From: Streptomyces exfoliatus
GTDB taxonomy: Bacteria > Actinomycetota > Actinomycetes > Streptomycetales > Streptomycetaceae
NCBI RefSeq assembly: GCF_000725545.1
Contig: NZ_JNZP01000018.1
Location: 1-64,000, forward strand
Reading direction: 5' to 3'
DNA length: 64,000 nt
The notes below the pieces were generated by a model that saw only the letters and a list, made by a program, of their open reading frames with translations, had not been told where the DNA came from and did not search any database. Position 1 is the first letter of the stretch. Each line of letters begins with the position of its first letter. This document shows, piece by piece, positions 14,424-25,823 of this stretch. The translations under genes were made by a program, and so were the position numbers.

Positions 14424-16781
14424 TCAACTCGCGCCGACCCGGGTGGTGAGGCCCCAGCCGTAGCGGAACTGCGGGTCGTAGCCGTGGTCGCCCGCGTTCA
14501 GGGGCAGCTGCTGGGCCGACCTCGGCCAGGTCACCGGGAGGCGTCCGGTGAAGGCCCGCCGGCCGTAGAGCACGTCGGCGACGCCGTCGCCCTCGCTGCC
14601 CGGCAGCCAGGAGGCGACCAGCGCGTCGATCCCCGCGAGCCGGTCGCCGACGAGCTGCGGACGTCCGGAGACGACCAGGACCGCGCACCGCATCGCCGCG
14701 CAGACCCGGTCGACGGCCTTCTTGTCGTCCGCGGACAGTTCCAGGTCGTGGCCGTTGACGCCGACGTCACCGACCCCTTCCGCGTATGGCGTCTCGCCGA
14801 CGACGACCACGCCCACGTCGTGCCCGGTGGTCGGCGCCGAGGCGTCCTCGGAGTAGGTGACGTGCGCCCGCGGGTCCGCCCTCCGGATGCCGTCCAGAAC
14901 GGTGGTGCCCTGGATCTCCCGCCCTCCGGCGCCCTGCCAGCCGACGGTCCAGCCACCTGCCTGGTTGGCCAGGTCGTCCGCGTTGGACCCGGCGACGTAC
15001 AGCCGCTGCCCGGTGCGCAGCGGCAGCACGCCCCCGCTGTTCTTCAGCAGCACCTGCGACCGGGCGACGGCCTCGCGGGCCGCCGCCCGGTGTTCGGGGG
15101 AGCCGATCCCGGCGAGGTGGGTGGTGTCGGCGTACGGCTTCTCGAAGAGGCCGAGGCGGAACTTCTGCTCCAGCACGCGGCCGACCGCGTCGTCGATCCG
15201 GGCGAGGGGGATCCGGCCGACGGCGACCTCGTCGGCGACGATCCGGCCGAACTCCTTGTACGTGAGCGGGGCCATGTTCATGTCGATGCCGGCGTTGACC
15301 GCGTCACGTACGTCGGTGACCGCGTCGCCCGGCATCTGGTCGACGGCCTCCCAGTCGCTGACAACGATCCCCCGGAACCCGAGCTCGCTCTTCAGCAGCC
15401 CGCTGATCATCTCGCCGTACGCGTGCATCTTCACCGGCCCGCTGCGCTCGCCGGTCAGGTGGAGCGAGGAGAACGAGGGCATGACGGCGCCCGCCCCGAG
15501 TCCGATCGCCCGCCGGAAGGGTGGGATGTGCACCTTCTCCAGCTCGCCCCGGTCGATCCGGGTGACGCCCTGGTCGATGGCGTACGGGGGGCGACCGGAG
15601 CCGTAGGCGGTGCCGCCGTCCCCGACGAAGTGCTTGGCGGTGGCGAGGACCTTGTCGTTGCGGGCGAGGTCACGGCCGTCGGCGGCGCCCTGGAGGCCCC
15701 GTACGGCGACCGCCATGGTCGCCACGAGCTCCGGGTCCTCGCCGAAGGACTCGTACGTACGGCCCCAGCGCACATCCCGCACGACGCACACACAGGGCGC
15801 GAAGTTCCAGGCGATCCCGGTCGCCCTCGTCTCCTCGGCGGTGATCGCGGCGAGCCGCTCGACGAGCGCGGGGTCGCGGGTGGCGCCGAGCCCGATGTTG
15901 TGGGGCATGACCGTGGCGCCCTTGACGAAGGAGTGGCCGTGCACGGCGTCGGTGGCCAGGAGCAGCGGGATCTGGAGGCGGGTGGCGCGGGCGTACCACT
16001 GGTAGGTGTCCGTCACCTTCCGCCAGGCCTCGGGGGTCTGCGCCGGCGAGCCGTCGGCCTCGGCCTCGTAGATCACCGAGCCGAGGGCGTAGGAGGTGAT
16101 GTCCTCGTGGGCGGCGAGGGCGTTGCGGCCGGCCTGGGTCATCTGGCCGGCCTTCTCGGCGAGCGTCATCCGCCCGAGGAGGTCGGCGACCCGTTCCCGG
16201 ACGGGGCGCGCCGGGTCGAGGTAGGGCAGTCCGTGCGCGTCCACGACGACCAGCGGGGCGCGCTCGGGCGCGGTGGCACCGGTGACGTCGAGCGTGACCG
16301 GCACGGCCTCGGCCGCCTCGGGCACGCGGTCGCGAAGGGTGGCGACCTCAAGGGTGCGCGCGGCCCCTGGTCTGCTTCCGGCGGGGAAGGTCACCGTGCC
16401 GGAGGCCGCCCGGTAGTCCCGGCCGGGGGCCGCGGCCCCGGCGCGAGGGGCGCGCGTCGACGCGTCCGTCCGGCCGCCCGGTCCCGCCGCGGTGGCGGGG
16501 GCGGTCGCGGCCGTCGTCCAGCCGACCGTCACCGGGTGCGTCAGCGGGCGGGCGGATTCGACGGTGAGGCGGACGCGGGCCGTGGCCCCCTCGGCCACCG
16601 TGGTGACCGGGGCGGCGGTGACGCGTACCGGGTCCGGGGGCCACGTGGTCGCGGGCACGGCCTCCGTCGCTGTGGCTGTGGCAGTCGCGGTGAGGCATCC
16701 GGCGAGGACGGCGCCGGACGCGACGGCCGCCGCCATGCCCGTCCGCGCCGCACGGAACGTATGACCATTCATACCGGACAT
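14424..16781 (-). CDS. Glycoside hydrolase family 3 lipoprotein (beta-glucosidase type) with N-terminal Calx-beta domain
   Basis: A 785-residue exported enzyme. The signal peptide ends in a lipobox (VLAGC), so it is probably a membrane-anchored lipoprotein. A Calx-beta-like domain follows (about 50-190, with the GRDYRAASGTVTFPAG strand signature). The GH3 N-terminal barrel contains LLLATDAVHGHS, KHFVGDGGT and GIVVSDWEAVDQ with the catalytic Asp in SDW. The GH3 C-terminal domain contains SQVLLKNSGGVLPL and VVVVGETPYAEGVGD, which is typical of beta-glucosidases and exo-beta-glucanases. ATG at 16781 has only a weak ribosome site; ATG at 16772 is an alternative. Confidence 0.87.
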   Translation of the reverse strand: MSGMNGHTFRAARTGMAAAVASGAVLAGCLTATATATATEAVPATTWPPDPVRVTAAPVTTVAEGATARVRLTVESARPLTHPVTVGWTTAATAPATAAGPGGRTDASTRAPRAGAAAPGRDYRAASGTVTFPAGSRPGAARTLEVATLRDRVPEAAEAVPVTLDVTGATAPERAPLVVVDAHGLPYLDPARPVRERVADLLGRMTLAEKAGQMTQAGRNALAAHEDITSYALGSVIYEAEADGSPAQTPEAWRKVTDTYQWYARATRLQIPLLLATDAVHGHSFVKGATVMPHNIGLGATRDPALVERLAAITAEETRATGIAWNFAPCVCVVRDVRWGRTYESFGEDPELVATMAVAVRGLQGAADGRDLARNDKVLATAKHFVGDGGTAYGSGRPPYAIDQGVTRIDRGELEKVHIPPFRRAIGLGAGAVMPSFSSLHLTGERSGPVKMHAYGEMISGLLKSELGFRGIVVSDWEAVDQMPGDAVTDVRDAVNAGIDMNMAPLTYKEFGRIVADEVAVGRIPLARIDDAVGRVLEQKFRLGLFEKPYADTTHLAGIGSPEHRAAAREAVARSQVLLKNSGGVLPLRTGQRLYVAGSNADDLANQAGGWTVGWQGAGGREIQGTTVLDGIRRADPRAHVTYSEDASAPTTGHDVGVVVVGETPYAEGVGDVGVNGHDLELSADDKKAVDRVCAAMRCAVLVVSGRPQLVGDRLAGIDALVASWLPGSEGDGVADVLYGRRAFTGRLPVTWPRSAQQLPLNAGDHGYDPQFRYGWGLTTRVGAS

Positions 16782-18774: not shown

Positions 18775-20103
18775 TCACGATACGGGCAGCTGATCCCGCT
18801 TCTGCCCCGGCACGGCGGCCTCGCCCGTCCCGACCCGGCCCAGGTCGATGTCCCGGGTCTCCCGCATCGTGAGGTAGACGACCAGGCTGACGGCCGCGCA
18901 GCCCGCCACGTACCAGAAGAAGCCCGACTCGATGCCGGCGTCCTTGAACCAGAGGGCCACGTACTCGGCGGTGCCGCCGAAGAGGGCGTTGGCGATCGCG
19001 TACGGCAGGGCGACGCCGAGGGCGCGGATGCCGGTGGGGAAGAGCTCGGCCTTCACGCAGGCGTTGATGGAGGTGTAGCCGGTGATGACGACGAGCGCGA
19101 GCAGGGAGAGGCCGAGGGCCGGCCAGAAGGAGCCGGCGTGCTTCAGCATCGTCATGATCGGCACGGTGAGGAGGGTGGAGCCGACCGCGAAGGTGATGAG
19201 GAGCGGCCGGCGGCCGATCCGGTCGGAGAGGCGCCCGGCCAGCGGCTGGAGGCAGGCGAAGACGATCAGGGCGCAGAAGGAGACCAGGGTCGCGGTCTGC
19301 TTGGGGAGCCCGGCGGAGTTGGACAGGTACTTGGTGAGGTAGGTGGTGTACGTGTAGTACGCCACGGTCCCGCCCATGGTGAGCGCGACGACGAGGAAGG
19401 CCTCGCGCCTGTGCGCCCAGAGGGCCTTGAGGGTGCCCTTCTGGTCGCCCGCGACGCCGGCGTCGGCGCTCTCCTCGTACACCTCGGTCTCCAACATGGT
19501 GCGGCGGAGGTAGAAGACGACGGCCGCGCCGAGGGCGCCGATGACGAAGGGGATGCGCCAGCCCCAGCTGTGCAGGGCCTCGGTGGACAGGGCCTGCTGG
19601 AGGATGAGCAGCAGGCCGAGGCCCAGGATCTGGCCCGCGGTCATCGACACGTACTGGAAGCTGGAGGCGAAGCCGCGGTGCTTCGGGTCCGAGGCCTCGG
19701 TGAGGTAGGTGGCGCTGGCGGCGTACTCGCCGCCGACGGAGAGCCCCTGGAGGAGGCGGGCGACCAGGAGGACGGCGGCACCGCCGTAGCCGGCGACGGC
19801 GTAGGTGGGCGCGACCGCGATGAGGAGGGCGGAGGCGGACATCAGGGTGACGGTGAGGGTGAGGGCCGCCTTGCGACCCTTGCGGTCACCGACCCGGCCG
19901 AGGAGCCAGCCGCCGACGGGCCGCATGAAGAAGCCGACCGCGAAGATGCCGGCGGTGTTCATGAGTCTGGCGGTGTCGTTGCTCTCGGGGAAGAACGCTC
20001 CCGCGAAGTAGGTGGCGAAGCTCGCGTACACGAACCAGTCGAACCACTCGACCATGTTGCCCGCGGATCCGACCCAGATCTTCTTCCACTGATCTCGTCC
20101 CAT
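18775..20103 (-). CDS. MFS transporter, metabolite:H+ symporter (MHS) type
   Basis: A 442-residue, 12-span carrier of the major facilitator superfamily. MVEWFDWFVYASFATYFAGA at span 1, GRVGDRKGRKAAL between spans 2 and 3, RLLQGLSVGGEYAAS in span 4 and GWRIPFVIG are hallmarks of the MHS family, which includes KgtP, ProP and ShiA and moves organic acids or zwitterions with protons. The substrate is unknown. It starts 75 bases downstream of the TetR gene and is the last gene of the ureAB-ureC-deiminase-TetR run, so it may supply or export a substrate of those enzymes. Confidence 0.85.
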   Translation of the reverse strand: MGRDQWKKIWVGSAGNMVEWFDWFVYASFATYFAGAFFPESNDTARLMNTAGIFAVGFFMRPVGGWLLGRVGDRKGRKAALTLTVTLMSASALLIAVAPTYAVAGYGGAAVLLVARLLQGLSVGGEYAASATYLTEASDPKHRGFASSFQYVSMTAGQILGLGLLLILQQALSTEALHSWGWRIPFVIGALGAAVVFYLRRTMLETEVYEESADAGVAGDQKGTLKALWAHRREAFLVVALTMGGTVAYYTYTTYLTKYLSNSAGLPKQTATLVSFCALIVFACLQPLAGRLSDRIGRRPLLITFAVGSTLLTVPIMTMLKHAGSFWPALGLSLLALVVITGYTSINACVKAELFPTGIRALGVALPYAIANALFGGTAEYVALWFKDAGIESGFFWYVAGCAAVSLVVYLTMRETRDIDLGRVGTGEAAVPGQKRDQLPVS

Positions 20104-20178
20104 GGTCCGGAACCGTGCCGGAGATCACGCGCCGACAACAAGGCCGCGGCCCACAACGATCAGGTCTACTTACGTGCG

Positions 20179-20808
20179 TTACGGTCGCGACACCAGATCC
20201 TGATCGATGAACTCCCGTACGTGCCCGAGGACTTGCTCCCTCCCGGTGCCCGGAATACCCACGGCGACGTGCACGCTGAAGCCGTCGAGCAGGGCGCGCA
20301 TCCGGGTGGCGAACCGGTCGGGGTCGACCGCCCGGAACTCGCCCCGCGAGACGCCCTCGGCGAGGATCGCGACGAGGTCCCGGTGCCAGGCCCCCTCGAT
20401 GGCGGCCTGGCGCGCGCGGGCGTCGTCGTCGGCGTTCTGCGACCGGTTCCAGACCTCCAGCCAGAGGGTCCAGTGCGGGTCACGCGGCCCGTCGGGCACG
20501 TACACGTCGACGTACCCGTCGAGCCGCTCGCGCGCGCTCCCGGGCCGGGAGAGCAGCGCGCTGCGCTCAGCCCCGAGCCGCCCCTCGCTCCACTCCAGGG
20601 TCTGGAGCAGCAGCTCGTCCTTGGTGCGGAAGTAGTAGAGCAGGTGCCCGCTGCTCATCCCGACCTGCCGCCCGAGCCCGGCCATGGTGAGCCCGTCGAG
20701 CCCGCGCTCGGCGATGGTGTCCATGGCCGCGGCGAGAAGCTCCTCGCGGGGCGGGGCGGCCTGGTTGCGGCGGCGGGGAGGGGGCGGCGGGCTGCTGCTC
20801 TGACTCAC
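20179..20808 (-). CDS. TetR/AcrR family regulator
   Basis: A 209-residue repressor with a Pro-rich start and an N-terminal helix-turn-helix at about 20-68 (DTIAERGLDGLTMAGLGRQV, HLLYYFRTKDELLLQTL). The C-terminal domain resembles BetI-type ligand domains (WLEVWNRSQNADDDARARQA). The GTG start at 20808 is 29 bases past the deiminase stop, which places it in the same transcription unit. It is the best local candidate to bind the repeated element at 24267-24352. Confidence 0.82.
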   Translation of the reverse strand: MSQSSSPPPPPRRRNQAAPPREELLAAAMDTIAERGLDGLTMAGLGRQVGMSSGHLLYYFRTKDELLLQTLEWSEGRLGAERSALLSRPGSARERLDGYVDVYVPDGPRDPHWTLWLEVWNRSQNADDDARARQAAIEGAWHRDLVAILAEGVSRGEFRAVDPDRFATRMRALLDGFSVHVAVGIPGTGREQVLGHVREFIDQDLVSRP

Positions 20809-20837
20809 TCGTACGTTCTACCGCATGCCCGGGGGGC

Positions 20838-21854
20838 TCAGACCTTCGGCTGCTGCTGGGTGATGCAGTGGATGCCGCCGCCGCCCGCGAAGATCGTCCG
20901 GGCGTCGACGAGGACGACCTCGCGCTCCGGGAAGAGGCGGCGGAAGATCTCGGCCGCCAGTTCGTCGTGGGGGTCGTCGAAGGCGCAGAGGACCACGCCG
21001 TCGTTGCACAGGTAGTGGTTGATGTACGAGTAGTCGACCCAGTCGCCGTCCTCGTCCTTGAGGACGGTGGGGGCCGGGATCTCGACGACCTCCAGGGGGC
21101 GGCCCTGGGCGTCGGTCTGGCCGCGCAGGATGTTCACGTACATCCGCGACCGCTCGTAGTCGGGGTGGGCCGGGTTCTGCTGGCTGTGCACGAGGACCGT
21201 GCCGGGGCGGGCGAAGGCGGCGACGATGTCGACGTGGCCCTGGGTGCCGTAGAGGCCGTAGTCGCCGGTGAGGCCGTTGGGGAGCCAGATCGCCTTGGTG
21301 GTGCCGAGCTTGGCGTGGATCTCGTTCTCGACCTGTTCGCGGGTCCACTCGGGGTTGCGGCCCGAGCCGAGCTGCACGGTGTCGGTGAGCAGGACGGTGC
21401 CCTCGCCGTCGACGTGGATCGCGCCGCCCTCGTTGACGAGGGAGGAGGCGAGTACGGGGACCTGCGCGAGGTCGGCGACATGGCGGGCGATCTTGGAGTC
21501 GTGCTCCCAGCGGGCCCAGTCCTGGGCGCCCCAGCCGTTGAACACCCAGTCCACGGCGGCGAGTTCGGTGCCGTTCGTGACGAACGTCGGGCCGATGTCC
21601 CGCATCCAGGCGTCGTCGAGGTCCCGCTCGACCAGCTCGATCTCCGGGCCGAGCAGCGCGGCGGCCGACGCGGCGTCGCCGGGGGCGACCACCATCGTCA
21701 CCGGCTCGAAGCGGCGTACGGCGCGGGCCACCGACGCCCAGGCGGCGCGGGCCTCGGCGAGTTCGTCCTCGTTGGTGAAGGTGGGGTTGGTGCCGGGCCA
21801 GGCCATCCAGGTGCGCTCGTGCGGCATCCACTCGGCGGGCATGCGGTAGCTCAT
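20838..21854 (-). CDS. Agmatine deiminase/peptidyl-arginine deiminase family protein
   Basis: A 338-residue guanidino-modifying enzyme. Agmatine deiminase converts agmatine to N-carbamoylputrescine and ammonia. The N-terminal MPAEWMPHERTWMAWP, DDAWMRDIGPTFV, NEGGAIHVDGEG, QGHVDIVAAFARPG and the C-terminal GGGGIHCITQQQPK with nucleophile Cys330 are all present. The start ATG at 21854 has AAGGAC upstream and lies 19 bases beyond the ureC stop. No N-carbamoylputrescine amidase (AguB) gene accompanies it. Substrate could be agmatine or another guanidino compound. Confidence 0.85.
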   Translation of the reverse strand: MSYRMPAEWMPHERTWMAWPGTNPTFTNEDELAEARAAWASVARAVRRFEPVTMVVAPGDAASAAALLGPEIELVERDLDDAWMRDIGPTFVTNGTELAAVDWVFNGWGAQDWARWEHDSKIARHVADLAQVPVLASSLVNEGGAIHVDGEGTVLLTDTVQLGSGRNPEWTREQVENEIHAKLGTTKAIWLPNGLTGDYGLYGTQGHVDIVAAFARPGTVLVHSQQNPAHPDYERSRMYVNILRGQTDAQGRPLEVVEIPAPTVLKDEDGDWVDYSYINHYLCNDGVVLCAFDDPHDELAAEIFRRLFPEREVVLVDARTIFAGGGGIHCITQQQPKV

Positions 21855-21873
21855 CGACAGGTCCTTAGCGGGG

Positions 21874-23556
21874 TCAGAGGAAGTAGAGGCGGTTGAGGGA
21901 GACGGACTCGACCGCCTCGGAGCGGATCGGGGAGCCGTCGAGCGAGACGAGTCCCGTGCGGTCGTCGACCTGGACGTCTCCGACCCGGGAGTTGAGCAGC
22001 AGGTCGGCGGGGCCGATCCCGCGCGTGCCGCGCACCGGGACGCGGCGGCGCCGGGTCGGCATCCTGTCGGCGCCGAGGTCGACGGCGGCCTGGGCGACGA
22101 ACGCGACGGAGATGTCGGCGGCGGTGGCGCCGTGCCCGCCGAACAACGGCCCGAGGACGAGCGGTTCGCAGGTGTCGGTGGCGGCGTTCGGATCGCCCAC
22201 GACTCCCCACGCGGGGAAGCCGGACTTGAGCACCAGCTGCGGCTTGGCGCCGAAGAACTCGGGCCGCCACAGCACGATGTCGGCCAGCTTCCCGGCCTCG
22301 ATCGAGCCGATCTCGTGGGCGAGGCCGTGGGCGATCGCCGGGTTGATGGTGAGCTTGGCCAGGTAGCGGAGCACGCGCGCGTTGTCGTCGTGTGCGCCGT
22401 CACCCTCCATGGGGCCCAGCTCGGCCTTCATCTTCCCGGCCATGGCGAAGGTCCGGCGTACGGTCTCGCCGGCCCTTCCCATCCCCTGCGCGTCGGAGGA
22501 GGTGATCCCGATCGCGCCGAGGTCGTGCAGGACGTCCTCCGCGCCCATCGTCCCGGCCCGGATCCGGTCGCGCGCCATGGCGGCGTCGCCCGGCAGGTCG
22601 GTCTTCAGGTCGTGGACGGAGACGATCATCCCGTAGTGCTCGGCGACCGCGTCGCGACCGAAGGGCAGGGTGGGGTTGGTGGAGGAGCCGATGACGTTCG
22701 GCACGCCCGCCATCTTCAGGACGTTGGGGACGTGTCCGCCGCCGCAGCCCTCGATGTGGAAGGCGTGGATCGTGCGCCCGTCGAGGACGCGGAGGGTGTC
22801 CTCCACGGACAGGCACTCGTTGAGGCCGTCGCTGTGCAGGGCGACCTGCACGTCGTGCTCCTCGGCCACCCGCAGGGCGGTGTCCAGGGCGCGGGTGTGG
22901 GCGCCCATGTCCTCGTGGACCTTGAAGCCGGACGCGCCGCCCTCGGCGAGCGCCTCGACCAGCGGCGCCGGGTCCGAGGAGGAGCCGCGGGCGAGGAAGC
23001 CGATGTTGACCGGCCAGGCGTCGAAGGCGTTGAACGCGTGCCGCAGGGCCCAGGGCGAGTTGACGCCGACGCCCCAGACCGGGCCGAACTCCTGCCCGAT
23101 GACGGTGGTGACACCGCTCGCGAGCGAGGCCTCCATGATCCGGGGGGAGAGCAGGTGGACATGGGTGTCGACGGCTCCGGCGGTGGCGATGAGGCCCTCG
23201 CCGGAGACGATGGAGGTGCCGGTGCCGACGACGACGTCGACGCCGTCGAGGGTGTCGGGGTTGCCGGCCCGCCCGATGGCGTGGATCCGGCCCTCGCGGA
23301 TGCCGATCGACACCTTCCGGATGCCGAGGACGGCGTCGAGCACCAGGACGTTGCTGATGACGACGTCGCAGGTCTCGCGGACGGCGGCGGCCTTGAGGTG
23401 GAGCCCGTCGCGGGCGGTCTTGCCGAAGCCGGCGAGGAACTCGTCGCCGGGCTGCTGGGAGTCCGACTCGACCCGGACGACGAGCCCGGAGTCGCCCAGG
23501 ACGACACGGTCGCCGGCGCGCGGGCCGTGCACGGATGCGTACTCGTACGGGTCCAT
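21874..23556 (-). CDS. ureC: Urease alpha subunit paralogue with an altered active-site flap
   Basis: A 560-residue member of the urease catalytic subunit family. The metal ligands are complete: DTHVH (His132, His134), FKVHEDMG (carbamylated Lys212, His214, Asp216), His241 in ALHSDGLNE, His267 in FHIEGCGGGH and Asp355 in SSDAQGMGR. The mobile flap that reads MVCHHLD in classical ureases is here IVSVHDLKTD: the catalytic His (His315) is kept, the flap Cys is Val and the second His is Asp. Its ATG overlaps the ureAB stop (TGATG), indicating translational coupling. No ureDEFG accessory genes are in the window. Activity on urea is possible, but a substituted urea is an alternative. Confidence 0.85.
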   Translation of the reverse strand: MDPYEYASVHGPRAGDRVVLGDSGLVVRVESDSQQPGDEFLAGFGKTARDGLHLKAAAVRETCDVVISNVLVLDAVLGIRKVSIGIREGRIHAIGRAGNPDTLDGVDVVVGTGTSIVSGEGLIATAGAVDTHVHLLSPRIMEASLASGVTTVIGQEFGPVWGVGVNSPWALRHAFNAFDAWPVNIGFLARGSSSDPAPLVEALAEGGASGFKVHEDMGAHTRALDTALRVAEEHDVQVALHSDGLNECLSVEDTLRVLDGRTIHAFHIEGCGGGHVPNVLKMAGVPNVIGSSTNPTLPFGRDAVAEHYGMIVSVHDLKTDLPGDAAMARDRIRAGTMGAEDVLHDLGAIGITSSDAQGMGRAGETVRRTFAMAGKMKAELGPMEGDGAHDDNARVLRYLAKLTINPAIAHGLAHEIGSIEAGKLADIVLWRPEFFGAKPQLVLKSGFPAWGVVGDPNAATDTCEPLVLGPLFGGHGATAADISVAFVAQAAVDLGADRMPTRRRRVPVRGTRGIGPADLLLNSRVGDVQVDDRTGLVSLDGSPIRSEAVESVSLNRLYFL

Positions 23557-24248
23557 CAGACGTCGTCTCCGCTCTCGGTACCCAGGTAGCCGCACGCCCG
23601 CGCCCTGCGCAGGGCCTCTTCCTTCGCGCCGGGCGCGTCCAGCGGGCCGTCGACCAGGCCCGCGAAGCCGATGGCGACGCGGGCGCCGCCGATCGGTACG
23701 AGCGGCACGTCGGCCTCGCCGCCCGGGTCGAAGCGGAAGGAGGCGCCGGCCGGGATGGCGAGCCGCATGCCGTAGGCGGCGGCCCGGTCGAAGTCGAGGC
23801 GCGGATTGGCCTCGAAGAAGTGGAAGTGGGAGGTGACGCTGACCGGGACGGTGGCCGTGTTCCGTACCGGGAGGGTGAGCGCCGGCTCGGTCTCCGGGTG
23901 TCCGGGGCCGGGCAGCAGCGCGCCGGGCGCCGCCGGACCGAGGCCGCCGCCGATGGGGTCGGAGACGACCGCGAGCCGTGAGCCGTCGTCGAAGACGGCT
24001 TCGACGTGGACCTCGGTGACCACGTCGGCGACGCCGGGGAGGACGTCGTCGGGGCCGAGCACCGAGCGGGCGGCCTCGATCGCCTCGGCGAGTCGCTTGC
24101 CGTCGCGGGCCGCCTCGCAGACGGTGTCCGCGATGAGCGCGGTCGCCTCGGGGACATTGAGCCGCAGGCCCCTGGCCCGGCGGGCACGGGCGAGCTCGGC
24201 GGCGCCGAAGAGCAGCAGCCGGTCGCGTTCCGTGGGGGTCAGTCGCAC
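23556..24248 (-). CDS. ureAB: Urease gamma-beta subunit fusion
   Basis: A 230-residue fusion of the urease gamma subunit (about 1-100, MRLTPTERDRLLLFGAAELA, LNVPEATALIAD, VLPGVADVVTEVHVEAVFDD) and beta subunit (about 110-225, NTATVPVSVTSHFHFFEAN, RAAAYGMRLAIPAG). Such fusions occur in Helicobacter and in second urease loci of actinomycetes. It is the first gene of the unit that continues into ureC. The start ATG at 24248 is the first Met of the conserved gamma-subunit N-terminus. Confidence 0.87.
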   Translation of the reverse strand: MRLTPTERDRLLLFGAAELARARRARGLRLNVPEATALIADTVCEAARDGKRLAEAIEAARSVLGPDDVLPGVADVVTEVHVEAVFDDGSRLAVVSDPIGGGLGPAAPGALLPGPGHPETEPALTLPVRNTATVPVSVTSHFHFFEANPRLDFDRAAAYGMRLAIPAGASFRFDPGGEADVPLVPIGGARVAIGFAGLVDGPLDAPGAKEEALRRARACGYLGTESGDDV

Positions 24249-24266
24249 GTCCGAAACACCTCCTGT

Positions 24267-24352
24267 TTGAGCACCACTCTAAATGTTGAGGCGCAGGGAT
24301 CCAAGCATTGACTCGCCAGCGGACTCAGGTCACATTGAGTGTCACTCTAAAT
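24267..24352. promoter_or_regulatory. Two copies of TTGAGNNNCACTCTAAAT in the ureAB/permease divergent promoter
   Basis: The 18-bp element occurs in the same orientation at 24267-24284 and 24335-24352, 68 bp apart, in the 147-bp gap between ureAB and the permease. The right copy contains the inverted repeat GAGTG-T-CACTC. One copy lies near each divergent gene, as expected for one regulator controlling both units. Confidence 0.6.
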
Positions 24353-24395
24353 CCGTCACCCCCCACCCCCACCGCTCCCGTCCCCAGGAGTCCCC

Positions 24396-25823
24396 ATGCC
24401 GATAGAACAGCGCGGAGTCGACACCGTCCCCGAGGCGGAACGCACCAGCGGCCCCCGCGATCTCGTCTCGATCCTGCTCGGCTCCAACCTCTGCCTGGGG
24501 GTGATCGTCTTCGGCTGGCTCCCCGTCTCCTTCGGCCTCGGCCTCTGGGCCTCGGTCACCTCCGTGGTCGCCGGCACCCTCCTCGGCGTGGCCGTCACCG
24601 CCCCGCTCGCCCTGGTCTCGCTCCGCACCGCGACCAACCTCTCCACCTCCTCCGGCGCCTTCTTCGGCGTCCGGGGCCGGCTCGTCGGCTCCGTGGTCGG
24701 ACTGCTGCTCTCGCTCGGCTACACCGCGCTGACCCTCTGGATCGGCGGCGACGTGATGGTGGGGACGCTCGCCCGGCTCACCGGCCTGCCGACCGGCGAC
24801 GCCACCCACGCCGTCGTGTACGCGCTGCTCGCCGCCTGCACGGTGGTCGGCGCGGTGTACGGCTACCGGCTGCTCCTCAAGCTGAGCAAGGCCCTCGCCT
24901 TCGGCATGACCGCGCTCCTCGCCCTCGGAGTCGTCGCCTACGCCGGTGACTTCACGACGGCGGCGGTGCCCGACACCCCGTACCTGCTCGGCTCGTTCTG
25001 GCCGACCTGGCTGCTCTCCGCCGTCGCGGCCGGCCTCAGCGGACCGGTCGCCTTCATCACCCTGCTCGGCGACTACACCCGGTACGTCTCCCCCGAGCGG
25101 CACAGCTCCCGCACGGTCCTGCGGGCCACCTGTCTCGGCCTGGTCGTCGGCCTCCTGATCCCCCAGCTCTTCGGTACGTTCACGGCGCTCGCCGCACGCG
25201 GATCGCTCGACTACGCGGGGCCGCTCGTCGCCGCCTCCCCCGTTTGGTACCTGGTCCCGCTGCTCATCGCGGCCACCGCGGGCTCCGTCGGCAACGCCGG
25301 TCTGATGCTGTACTCGATGGGTCTCGACCTGGACGCCATCCTGCCGAAGGCCACCCGGGCCCGCGCCACCCTGGTGGTCGCGGCGGTCGCCACCGGCTTC
25401 GTCTTCCTCGGCCACTTCGCCTCGGACGCGCAGACCGCGATGACCTCGTTCGTCCTGCTGCTCACCGCGATCGGCACCCCGTGGGCGGTGATCACCCTGA
25501 TCGGGCACGTGCGCTGCGGGGGCGCGTACGACCCGGAGGCGCTCCAGGTCTACAACCGCCGTGCGCGCGGCGGGATCTACTGGTTCTCGGCGGGCTGGCA
25601 CCCGCGCGCCACCGCCTCCTGGGCGATCGGCGCGGCGGCCGGCCTGGCCTCGGTGTCGACGCCCCTCTACGAGGGACCGCTGCTCGCCCTGACGGGCGGG
25701 ATCGACTGCAGCTTCGTGGTGTCGGGGATCGTGGGCGGCGCGCTGTACACGGTACTGACGCCGAACAGGGCTCCCGCGACCGTCGATGCGACGGCCCCGG
25801 AAGCCCTGGCGGCCACGGAGTAG
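24396..25823 (+). CDS. NCS1-family permease (purine/cytosine/allantoin type)
   Basis: A 475-residue, about 12-span transporter of the nucleobase:cation symporter-1 family. LLGSNLCLGVIVFGWLPVSF in span 1, RTATNLSTSSGAFFGVRG, ITLLGDYTRYVSPE and the YWFSAGWHPRATASW motif before the last spans are typical. ATG at 24396 has AGGAG about 7 bases upstream. It is divergent from ureAB, with a shared repeat element, so it probably imports a nitrogen-rich substrate (nucleobase, ureide, hydantoin or similar) used by that cluster. Confidence 0.84.
   Translation: MPIEQRGVDTVPEAERTSGPRDLVSILLGSNLCLGVIVFGWLPVSFGLGLWASVTSVVAGTLLGVAVTAPLALVSLRTATNLSTSSGAFFGVRGRLVGSVVGLLLSLGYTALTLWIGGDVMVGTLARLTGLPTGDATHAVVYALLAACTVVGAVYGYRLLLKLSKALAFGMTALLALGVVAYAGDFTTAAVPDTPYLLGSFWPTWLLSAVAAGLSGPVAFITLLGDYTRYVSPERHSSRTVLRATCLGLVVGLLIPQLFGTFTALAARGSLDYAGPLVAASPVWYLVPLLIAATAGSVGNAGLMLYSMGLDLDAILPKATRARATLVVAAVATGFVFLGHFASDAQTAMTSFVLLLTAIGTPWAVITLIGHVRCGGAYDPEALQVYNRRARGGIYWFSAGWHPRATASWAIGAAAGLASVSTPLYEGPLLALTGGIDCSFVVSGIVGGALYTVLTPNRAPATVDATAPEALAATE

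Follow-up and report, generated by a model that had tools for sequence, protein, structure and literature searches.

The stretch analysed here (the window) comprises 64,000 nucleotides of Streptomyces exfoliatus DNA (contig NZ_JNZP01000018.1, positions 1 to 64,000) and carries a six-gene cluster in which a urease paralogue lies beside an agmatine-deiminase-like enzyme (ADI). On the minus strand, the genes are transcribed in the order ureAB, ureC2, ADI, tetR and a metabolite:H+ symporter (MHS) gene, with gaps of -1, 19, 29 and 75 bp. The first gene, ureAB (23556..24248), encodes a 230-aa fusion of the urease gamma and beta subunits (PF00547 and PF00699; 321 bits on NF009671, cut-off 243). It is followed by ureC2 (21874..23556; PF00449 and PF01979), a urease alpha paralogue whose ATG start overlaps the ureAB stop and for which an alternative longer GTG frame extends to 23595, and by ADI (20838..21854), a pentein of 338 aa (PF04371, 382 bits). 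A TetR-family regulator with a BetI-type C-terminal domain (20179..20808; PF00440, PF13977) and an MHS-type transporter of the major facilitator superfamily (18775..20103; PF00083; best NCBIfam match NF007710, 454 bits, cut-off 550) complete the series. An NCS1-family permease (24396..25823, plus strand; PF02133, 300 bits) is divergent from ureAB, 147 bp apart. A preliminary description of the locus had given this layout, five co-directional genes and a divergent NCS1 gene, and domain scans recovered all six. We propose that the cluster is probably an agmatine-catabolic operon, in which the urease paralogue UreAB-UreC2 would perform the second step by hydrolysing N-carbamoylputrescine, without the urease GTPase UreG.

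UreC2 belongs to a distinct branch of the urease family. The gamma, beta and alpha subunits of a urease are all represented by the domains above. On the urease-alpha equivalog TIGR01792, UreC2 scores 636 bits, below the cut-off of 680, and it passes the broader NF009686 (739 bits, cut-off 354). Its identity to known ureases is about 45%, while the named homologues at 93-95% identity are from Streptomyces. Of the 45 UreC sequences placed in a tree, 24 form the UreC2 clade (local support 1.0); a further 19 are mostly canonical, and the last two make up a third group. At almost every UreC2 locus that was read, UreAB is fused and gives a single match, and most canonical loci give two separate ones. 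The two sequences of the third group (L127 in genome G277 and L065 in G206) are about 49% identical to UreC2; amidohydrolase_3 and MHS-like genes adjoin L065, and G277 has no UreG match.

Residues of UreC are given in Klebsiella aerogenes numbering, which we set from the ligand positions. The metal-site residues H134, H136, K217, H219, H246, H272 and D360 are kept in all 24 UreC2 sequences, as are H320, R336 and D221, which include the catalytic His and Arg. The same 24 sequences all lack residues 170-173 (a deletion of four), carry the replacements G158 to E or D, E163 to W, A276 to C and A363 to G, and have V, L or I in place of Ala167. The flap Cys319 is retained in only two of them. Among the 19 other UreC sequences, Ala167 is found in 15, Ala363 in 17 and Cys319 in 18. 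These positions correspond to Ala170, Ala366 and Cys322 of Sporosarcina pasteurii urease, in which the backbone oxygens of Ala170 and Ala366 hold the NH2 groups of urea (PMC7433671). Because the metal ligands are kept and the urea contacts are altered, UreC2 is, judged by its residues, an enzyme with intact hydrolytic machinery and a changed urea pocket. The replacement of Cys319 in 22 of 24 sequences would also fit a urease relative that is dead or structural and catalyses nothing; this is very improbable, as none of the 24 sequences, which come from several families, has lost a metal ligand, Lys217, His320, Arg336 or Asp221.

The ADI subfamily, defined by at least 48% identity to the window ADI (with two Streptomyces members, G073 and G261, placed by position only), forms a clade with a local support of 0.998. 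The pentein residues of plant AIH are Cys366, His224, Asp226, Asp94, Trp91, Trp125 and Asp218 (PMC6447857), and all seven are conserved in 51 of 51 subfamily rows, one of which has an X at the Cys. The proposed ADI substrate is agmatine or a guanidino-amine very close to it.

The association of UreC2 with ADI extends well beyond the window. The class was sampled with 296 genomes; 69 of them have PF04371, and UreC2, called at no less than 53% identity to the window protein, occurs in 38 genomes and 39 places. Only the few best candidates of each genome are scored in these searches, and individual genes may therefore have been missed. Measured on coordinates, 28 of the 39 UreC2 places have an ADI within 1.5 kb; these are all 21 Streptomyces places, three in family f17, and G194, G229, G027 and G288. 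The matched stretches are 22-221 bp apart at all 24 places of Streptomyces and f17, and in G194 and G229 (L049 and L050, from another family) the gene order is ADI-ureAB-ureC2. Since the linkage turns up in several families and with more than one gene order, chance adjacency of the cluster genes is rejected. Three UreC2-adjacent ADIs (in G027, G288 and the second pair of G143) belong to other ADI types; that of G027 is a full agmatine deiminase (TIGR03380, 517.9 bits, cut-off 381.8) located 0.5 kb from UreC2 and convergent with it. UreC2 is also present in 225 of 362 Streptomyces genomes searched. Of the eight UreC2-minus Streptomyces in the class sample, the PF04371 search found no gene in seven, and the eighth (G039) has one.

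Genes relevant to polyamines recur near UreC2. PotD-like polyamine-binding-protein genes occur at five loci (L053, L058, L063, L121 and L123) and read as parts of ABC-transporter sets in the first three, with the L058 protein scoring 184 bits on PotD, under the cut-off of 582. An aldehyde dehydrogenase gene is located near UreC2 in L053, and an amine oxidase together with an aldehyde dehydrogenase in L063. These neighbours suggest polyamine uptake and putrescine oxidation around UreC2. The second UreC2-ADI pair of G143 (L060, L113) is surrounded by several ADI paralogues, some of which have Tat-like N-termini by eye. An amidohydrolase_3 gene adjoins ureAB-ureC2 at six loci (L055, L056, L058, L059, L122 and L123; PF07969 in L058, the one scanned). 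It might replace the deiminase, because no PF04371 gene was found in five of these six genomes.

Another link to agmatine comes from the enzymes that take the place of UreC2. The enzymes named for the N-carbamoylputrescine step are putrescine transcarbamylase, AguB and AguY, and AguY of Microterricola gilva hydrolyses N-carbamoylputrescine with a kcat/Km of 6.4e5 per M per s (PMC12283126, 2025). In the class sample, AguY was called by NF005127 above cut-off and AguB-like CN hydrolases at E <=1e-40, and non-Streptomyces ADI loci were searched with seed proteins. Proteins were labelled AguY on the strength of NF005127/PF01425, length and neighbourhood; M. gilva, a member of the Microbacteriaceae, lies outside the 120 homologues listed. 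The ADI subfamily occupies 65 places, and is adjoined by UreC2 in 25, by an AguY-type amidase in 12 and by an AguB-like CN hydrolase in 18. The other places are seven non-adjacent ones in UreC2-carrying genomes, two contig ends with an AguB-like gene elsewhere in the genome, and one (G076) with none of the three. NF005127 is above cut-off in all 12 ADI-adjacent AguY proteins, with PF01425 in both that were scanned; PF00795 is found in the three AguB-like proteins scanned, and one of the 18 was read from a contig end.

Genome-wide, UreC2 (38 of the 296 genomes), AguY (12) and AguB-like (25) form sets with zero overlap. Exactly one of the three hydrolases is present in 65 of 69 ADI genomes vs 10 of 227 non-ADI genomes, the latter with UreC2 in five and an AguB-like enzyme in five. 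A search for co-occurrence with or without aguB had been suggested in the preliminary description, and the UreC2 and AguB-like sets proved disjoint in this sample. Swaps also occur within families: between UreC2 and AguB-like in f1, between AguY and AguB-like in f3 and f36, and between UreC2 and AguY in f17. Judged by genome context, UreC2 accompanies an AguA-type deiminase where AguB or AguY would otherwise stand, and exceptions exist.

A scan of named genomes for AguY gave at least 587 relatives, of which the best 80 were kept (Microbacterium, Arthrobacter, Agromyces, Leifsonia and others). Within these best 80 of at least 587 loci, the window ADI subfamily adjoins AguY in 58 and another ADI in one, UreC2 or UreAB is found in none, and an NCS1-type permease is near AguY in nine. 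Such a permease, a partner of the kind seen in the window, also adjoins ADI-AguY in three of the 12 class loci (L080, L090 and L105), and L080 also has a TetR-like frame by reading. Ten of the best 80 loci come from Streptomyces, Kitasatospora or Yinghuangia and one from Pseudonocardia, and all 11 are without an adjacent ADI. The Pseudonocardia genome has no UreC2 and a single ADI.

Natural deletions in the same slot point in the same direction. In Streptomyces sp. CB02009 (G296, locus L226), the order leuB-ilvE-NCS1-ADI-TetR-MHS-cimA is preserved at 92-97% identity, and NCS1 and ADI have no UreAB-UreC2 between them. In Streptomyces sp. NRRL F-6492 (G300, locus L227), cimA-MHS-TetR-ADI-ilvE-leuB is preserved at 86-97%, without UreAB-UreC2 and without NCS1. 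A UreC2 search of these two genomes found none elsewhere, and AguY is located elsewhere in both. The case of G039, where cimA-TetR-ADI runs to the contig end, an AguB-like gene is present and a UreC2 search of the assembly found none, is rejected as a clean loss and gives weak support only, since a gap at a contig end could be an assembly artefact. Its AguB-like gene (L126) has no adjacent ADI and is the sole gene labelled in a 13-kb stretch.

The core idea of the preliminary description, that the urease paralogue might hydrolyse the ureido product of the deiminase, is probably right; it is strongly, if indirectly, supported by the AguY and AguB-like genes that adjoin the same ADI subfamily in relatives and by the two Streptomyces that keep ADI and carry AguY. 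A classical urease and an AguB-like candidate are present in the same genome. Several observations weigh against the idea. Six UreC2 genomes have their ADI elsewhere, and the PF04371 search found no gene in five of the 38. None of the three hydrolases is found in four of the 69 ADI genomes, namely G047, G107 and G127, which have other ADI types only, and G076, which is 73% complete. No ADI is adjacent in 21 of the best 80 of at least 587 AguY loci. Ten genomes of Streptomyces, Kitasatospora and Yinghuangia with AguY were selected, and eight of them also have UreC2, which contradicts strict exclusivity, and absolute exclusivity of the three hydrolases is therefore rejected. Gly at position 363 also occurs in two of the 19 canonical UreC sequences. 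Fisher's test of ADI against exactly one hydrolase gives p 2e-49; because the genomes are related and 20 of the 38 UreC2 genomes are from one genus, so that counts are not independent, this value is read as a pattern and not as a probability.

The deiminase contributes two more points of this kind. The window ADI reaches 317 bits on the agmatine deiminase equivalog TIGR03380, for which the cut-off is 381.8, and Gly replaces the amine-binding Asp220 of plant AIH in 51 of 51 subfamily rows. Both would fit a route of the same two steps on another molecule, in which ADI acts on a modified agmatine or a guanidino acid, and UreC2, AguY and AguB-like enzymes act on the matching ureido compound. The amidohydrolase_3 that adjoins UreC2 in genomes without ADI would fit it as well, as would the NCS1 and MHS transporters, which we take to be unusual for polyamines. 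However, M. gilva AguY accepts N-carbamoylputrescine as substrate, and its Km was the lowest among the three enzymes compared (PMC12283126), and UreC2 is also found near the full AguA of G027 and near PotD-like genes. We consider this alternative improbable.

The remaining points concern the rest of the S. exfoliatus genome, which was searched with profiles over 7.87 Mb in 128 contigs (the window and the remaining contigs). The classical urease region is on contig C2, with ureC, UreG, ureA and ureB found by search and ureF and ureD by eye. Apart from this, a weak PF00449 match of 25 bits lies at C3:197299 (L003 / L013). A TIGR03381 search for AguB found none above the 410-bit cut-off in the genome, whereas a CN hydrolase on contig C14 reaches 259 bits, so the earlier statement that AguB is absent holds for the window and at that cut-off and needs this qualification. 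In a second alternative, ADI makes N-carbamoylputrescine, the C14 enzyme finishes the pathway, and UreAB-UreC2 is a second urease of the ordinary kind, whose position there is due to chance or serves nitrogen co-regulation. UreC2 may have another role if the C14 enzyme is a true AguB. In the PDB, the C14 enzyme matches the N-carbamoylputrescine amidohydrolase 5h8i best (E 1.3e-58), and beta-ureidopropionases rank behind it. We assume that SCO6414 of S. coelicolor is the orthologue of the C14 enzyme. In 2012, SCO6414 was listed with SCO5527 among the S. coelicolor homologues of the arginine decarboxylase (ADC) pathway (PMC3293853). Against this, the score is far under the cut-off, the C14 protein is only 29-34% identical to ADI-linked AguB-like proteins, and its neighbour (PF01979) reads as dihydropyrimidinase-like, which suggests pyrimidine or hydantoin breakdown. 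The C14 route also leaves unexplained the non-overlap of UreC2, AguY and AguB-like enzymes, the changed urea contacts, and the persistence of UreC2 without UreG. We regard it as rather unlikely, and UreAB-UreC2 as the probable second enzyme of agmatine catabolism.

The distribution of UreG bears on how UreC2 is matured. UreG is above cut-off in 106 of the 296 class genomes, including 82 of 83 genomes with only a non-UreC2 UreC, and in none of the 15 genomes in which UreC2 is the sole UreC. One of the 15 (G288) has a UreG fragment at a contig end (199.7 bits, cut-off 204.2), and G089, with UreC2 and a second UreC match, is also without UreG above cut-off. As no UreC2-only genome has UreG above cut-off, UreC2 seems not to need the urease GTPase, and maturation is therefore probably without the nickel-urease chaperones. 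PDB entry 3qga, which we take to be the enzyme of Helicobacter mustelae, ranks among ordinary ureases, which gives no support to a close relationship between UreC2 and the nickel-independent urease of H. mustelae; H. mustelae UreAB2 is not known to have a deiminase partner. That protein is a precedent for the maturation question and is a urease, unlike UreC2 as proposed (PMC2846917).

The proposals on substrate, products, metal, regulation and transport build on the computed genes, clade, residues, gene swaps and UreG pattern. Deimination by ADI would turn agmatine, or a guanidino-amine very close to it, into N-carbamoylputrescine and NH3. UreAB-UreC2, with its intact two-metal site and changed pocket, would then hydrolyse the ureido group, yielding putrescine, NH3 and CO2 and so performing the step that falls elsewhere to AguB or AguY. 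A broader view is that UreAB-UreC2 acts as an N-carbamoylputrescine hydrolase that needs no UreG and perhaps no nickel, and that many Streptomyces and freshwater Nanopelagicales have in this way recruited a urease fold to polyamine metabolism; we hold the chances of this fuller version to be about evenly balanced. Nanopelagicales live in freshwater, and the UreC2 of L050 (G229, family f34) shares 99% identity with a protein that carries the name Candidatus Nanopelagicales and is filed under urease subunit alpha; UreC2 would therefore extend to freshwater actinobacteria. We found no paper in the open-access literature pairing Nanopelagicales with urease.

The agmatine deiminase pathway is known, and the likely new element is a variant with a urease-fold enzyme as the second step. 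The closest arrangement is AguA-AguY of Shewanella oneidensis and M. gilva, where an agmatine deiminase likewise lies beside a hydrolase of the ureido product, and where the window ADI subfamily is itself the partner of AguY in Microbacterium, Arthrobacter and others; it differs in that the hydrolase is an amidase-signature enzyme instead of a urease-fold metalloenzyme (PMC12283126). AguA-AguB of Pseudomonas and plants has the same overall chemistry as proposed here, but AguB is nitrilase-like (PMC12283126). The word "urease" occurs zero times in the main text of PMC12283126, and among the titles and abstract openings of the open-access papers listed, no proposal of a urease relative for N-carbamoylputrescine was found. 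In 2008, S. coelicolor (SCO5526) and S. avermitilis were described as having a second urease made up of ure(AB)C only (PMC2492869). SCO5526 is the presumed orthologue of UreC2 and likewise has fused ureAB and ureC without accessory genes; there it is treated as a urease cluster, and in the relevant passages neither a deiminase link nor the substrate is raised (PMC2492869).

Urease is the textbook example of a single-substrate enzyme. If the proposal is correct, a urease-fold enzyme that hydrolyses a substituted urea, and does so without UreG, would alter the reading of many "urease subunit alpha" annotations, a label that on UreC2 could be misread as urea use. It would also explain why Streptomyces retain a second urease without accessory genes, and add another independent, non-homologous enzyme for the agmatine-to-putrescine step.

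Regulation and transport would be served by the remaining genes. The TetR protein probably represses both divergent transcription units, presumably by binding at two candidate operator cores of 11 bp between ureAB and NCS1: GAGCACCACTC on the ureAB side (24269..24279) and GAGTGTCACTC on the NCS1 side (24337..24347). Both cores sit inside a longer TTTGAG...CACTCTAAA-type context. The strict pattern of the first core is found in five of six relatives examined (L061, L074, L084, L124 and the UreC2-minus L226) and not in L118, whose stretch had a different cut. The second core is found in its strict pattern only in the window, L061 and L226, with a degenerate likeness by eye in L074, L084 and L124. 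Both cores are thus retained in L226, where UreAB-UreC2 is missing. The NCS1 and MHS transporters would import the substrate. Assignment of an NCS1 substrate via solved structures was dropped, as a PDB sequence search at E 0.001 returned zero relatives. The wider guanidino and ureido scavenging scope of the preliminary description, with allantoate and others as candidates, has just the family name of this permease to speak for such breadth. The genes flanking the cluster resemble cimA/leuA, ilvE and leuB. Elsewhere in the window, a 785-aa frame at 14424-16781 resembles a glycoside hydrolase family 3 enzyme.

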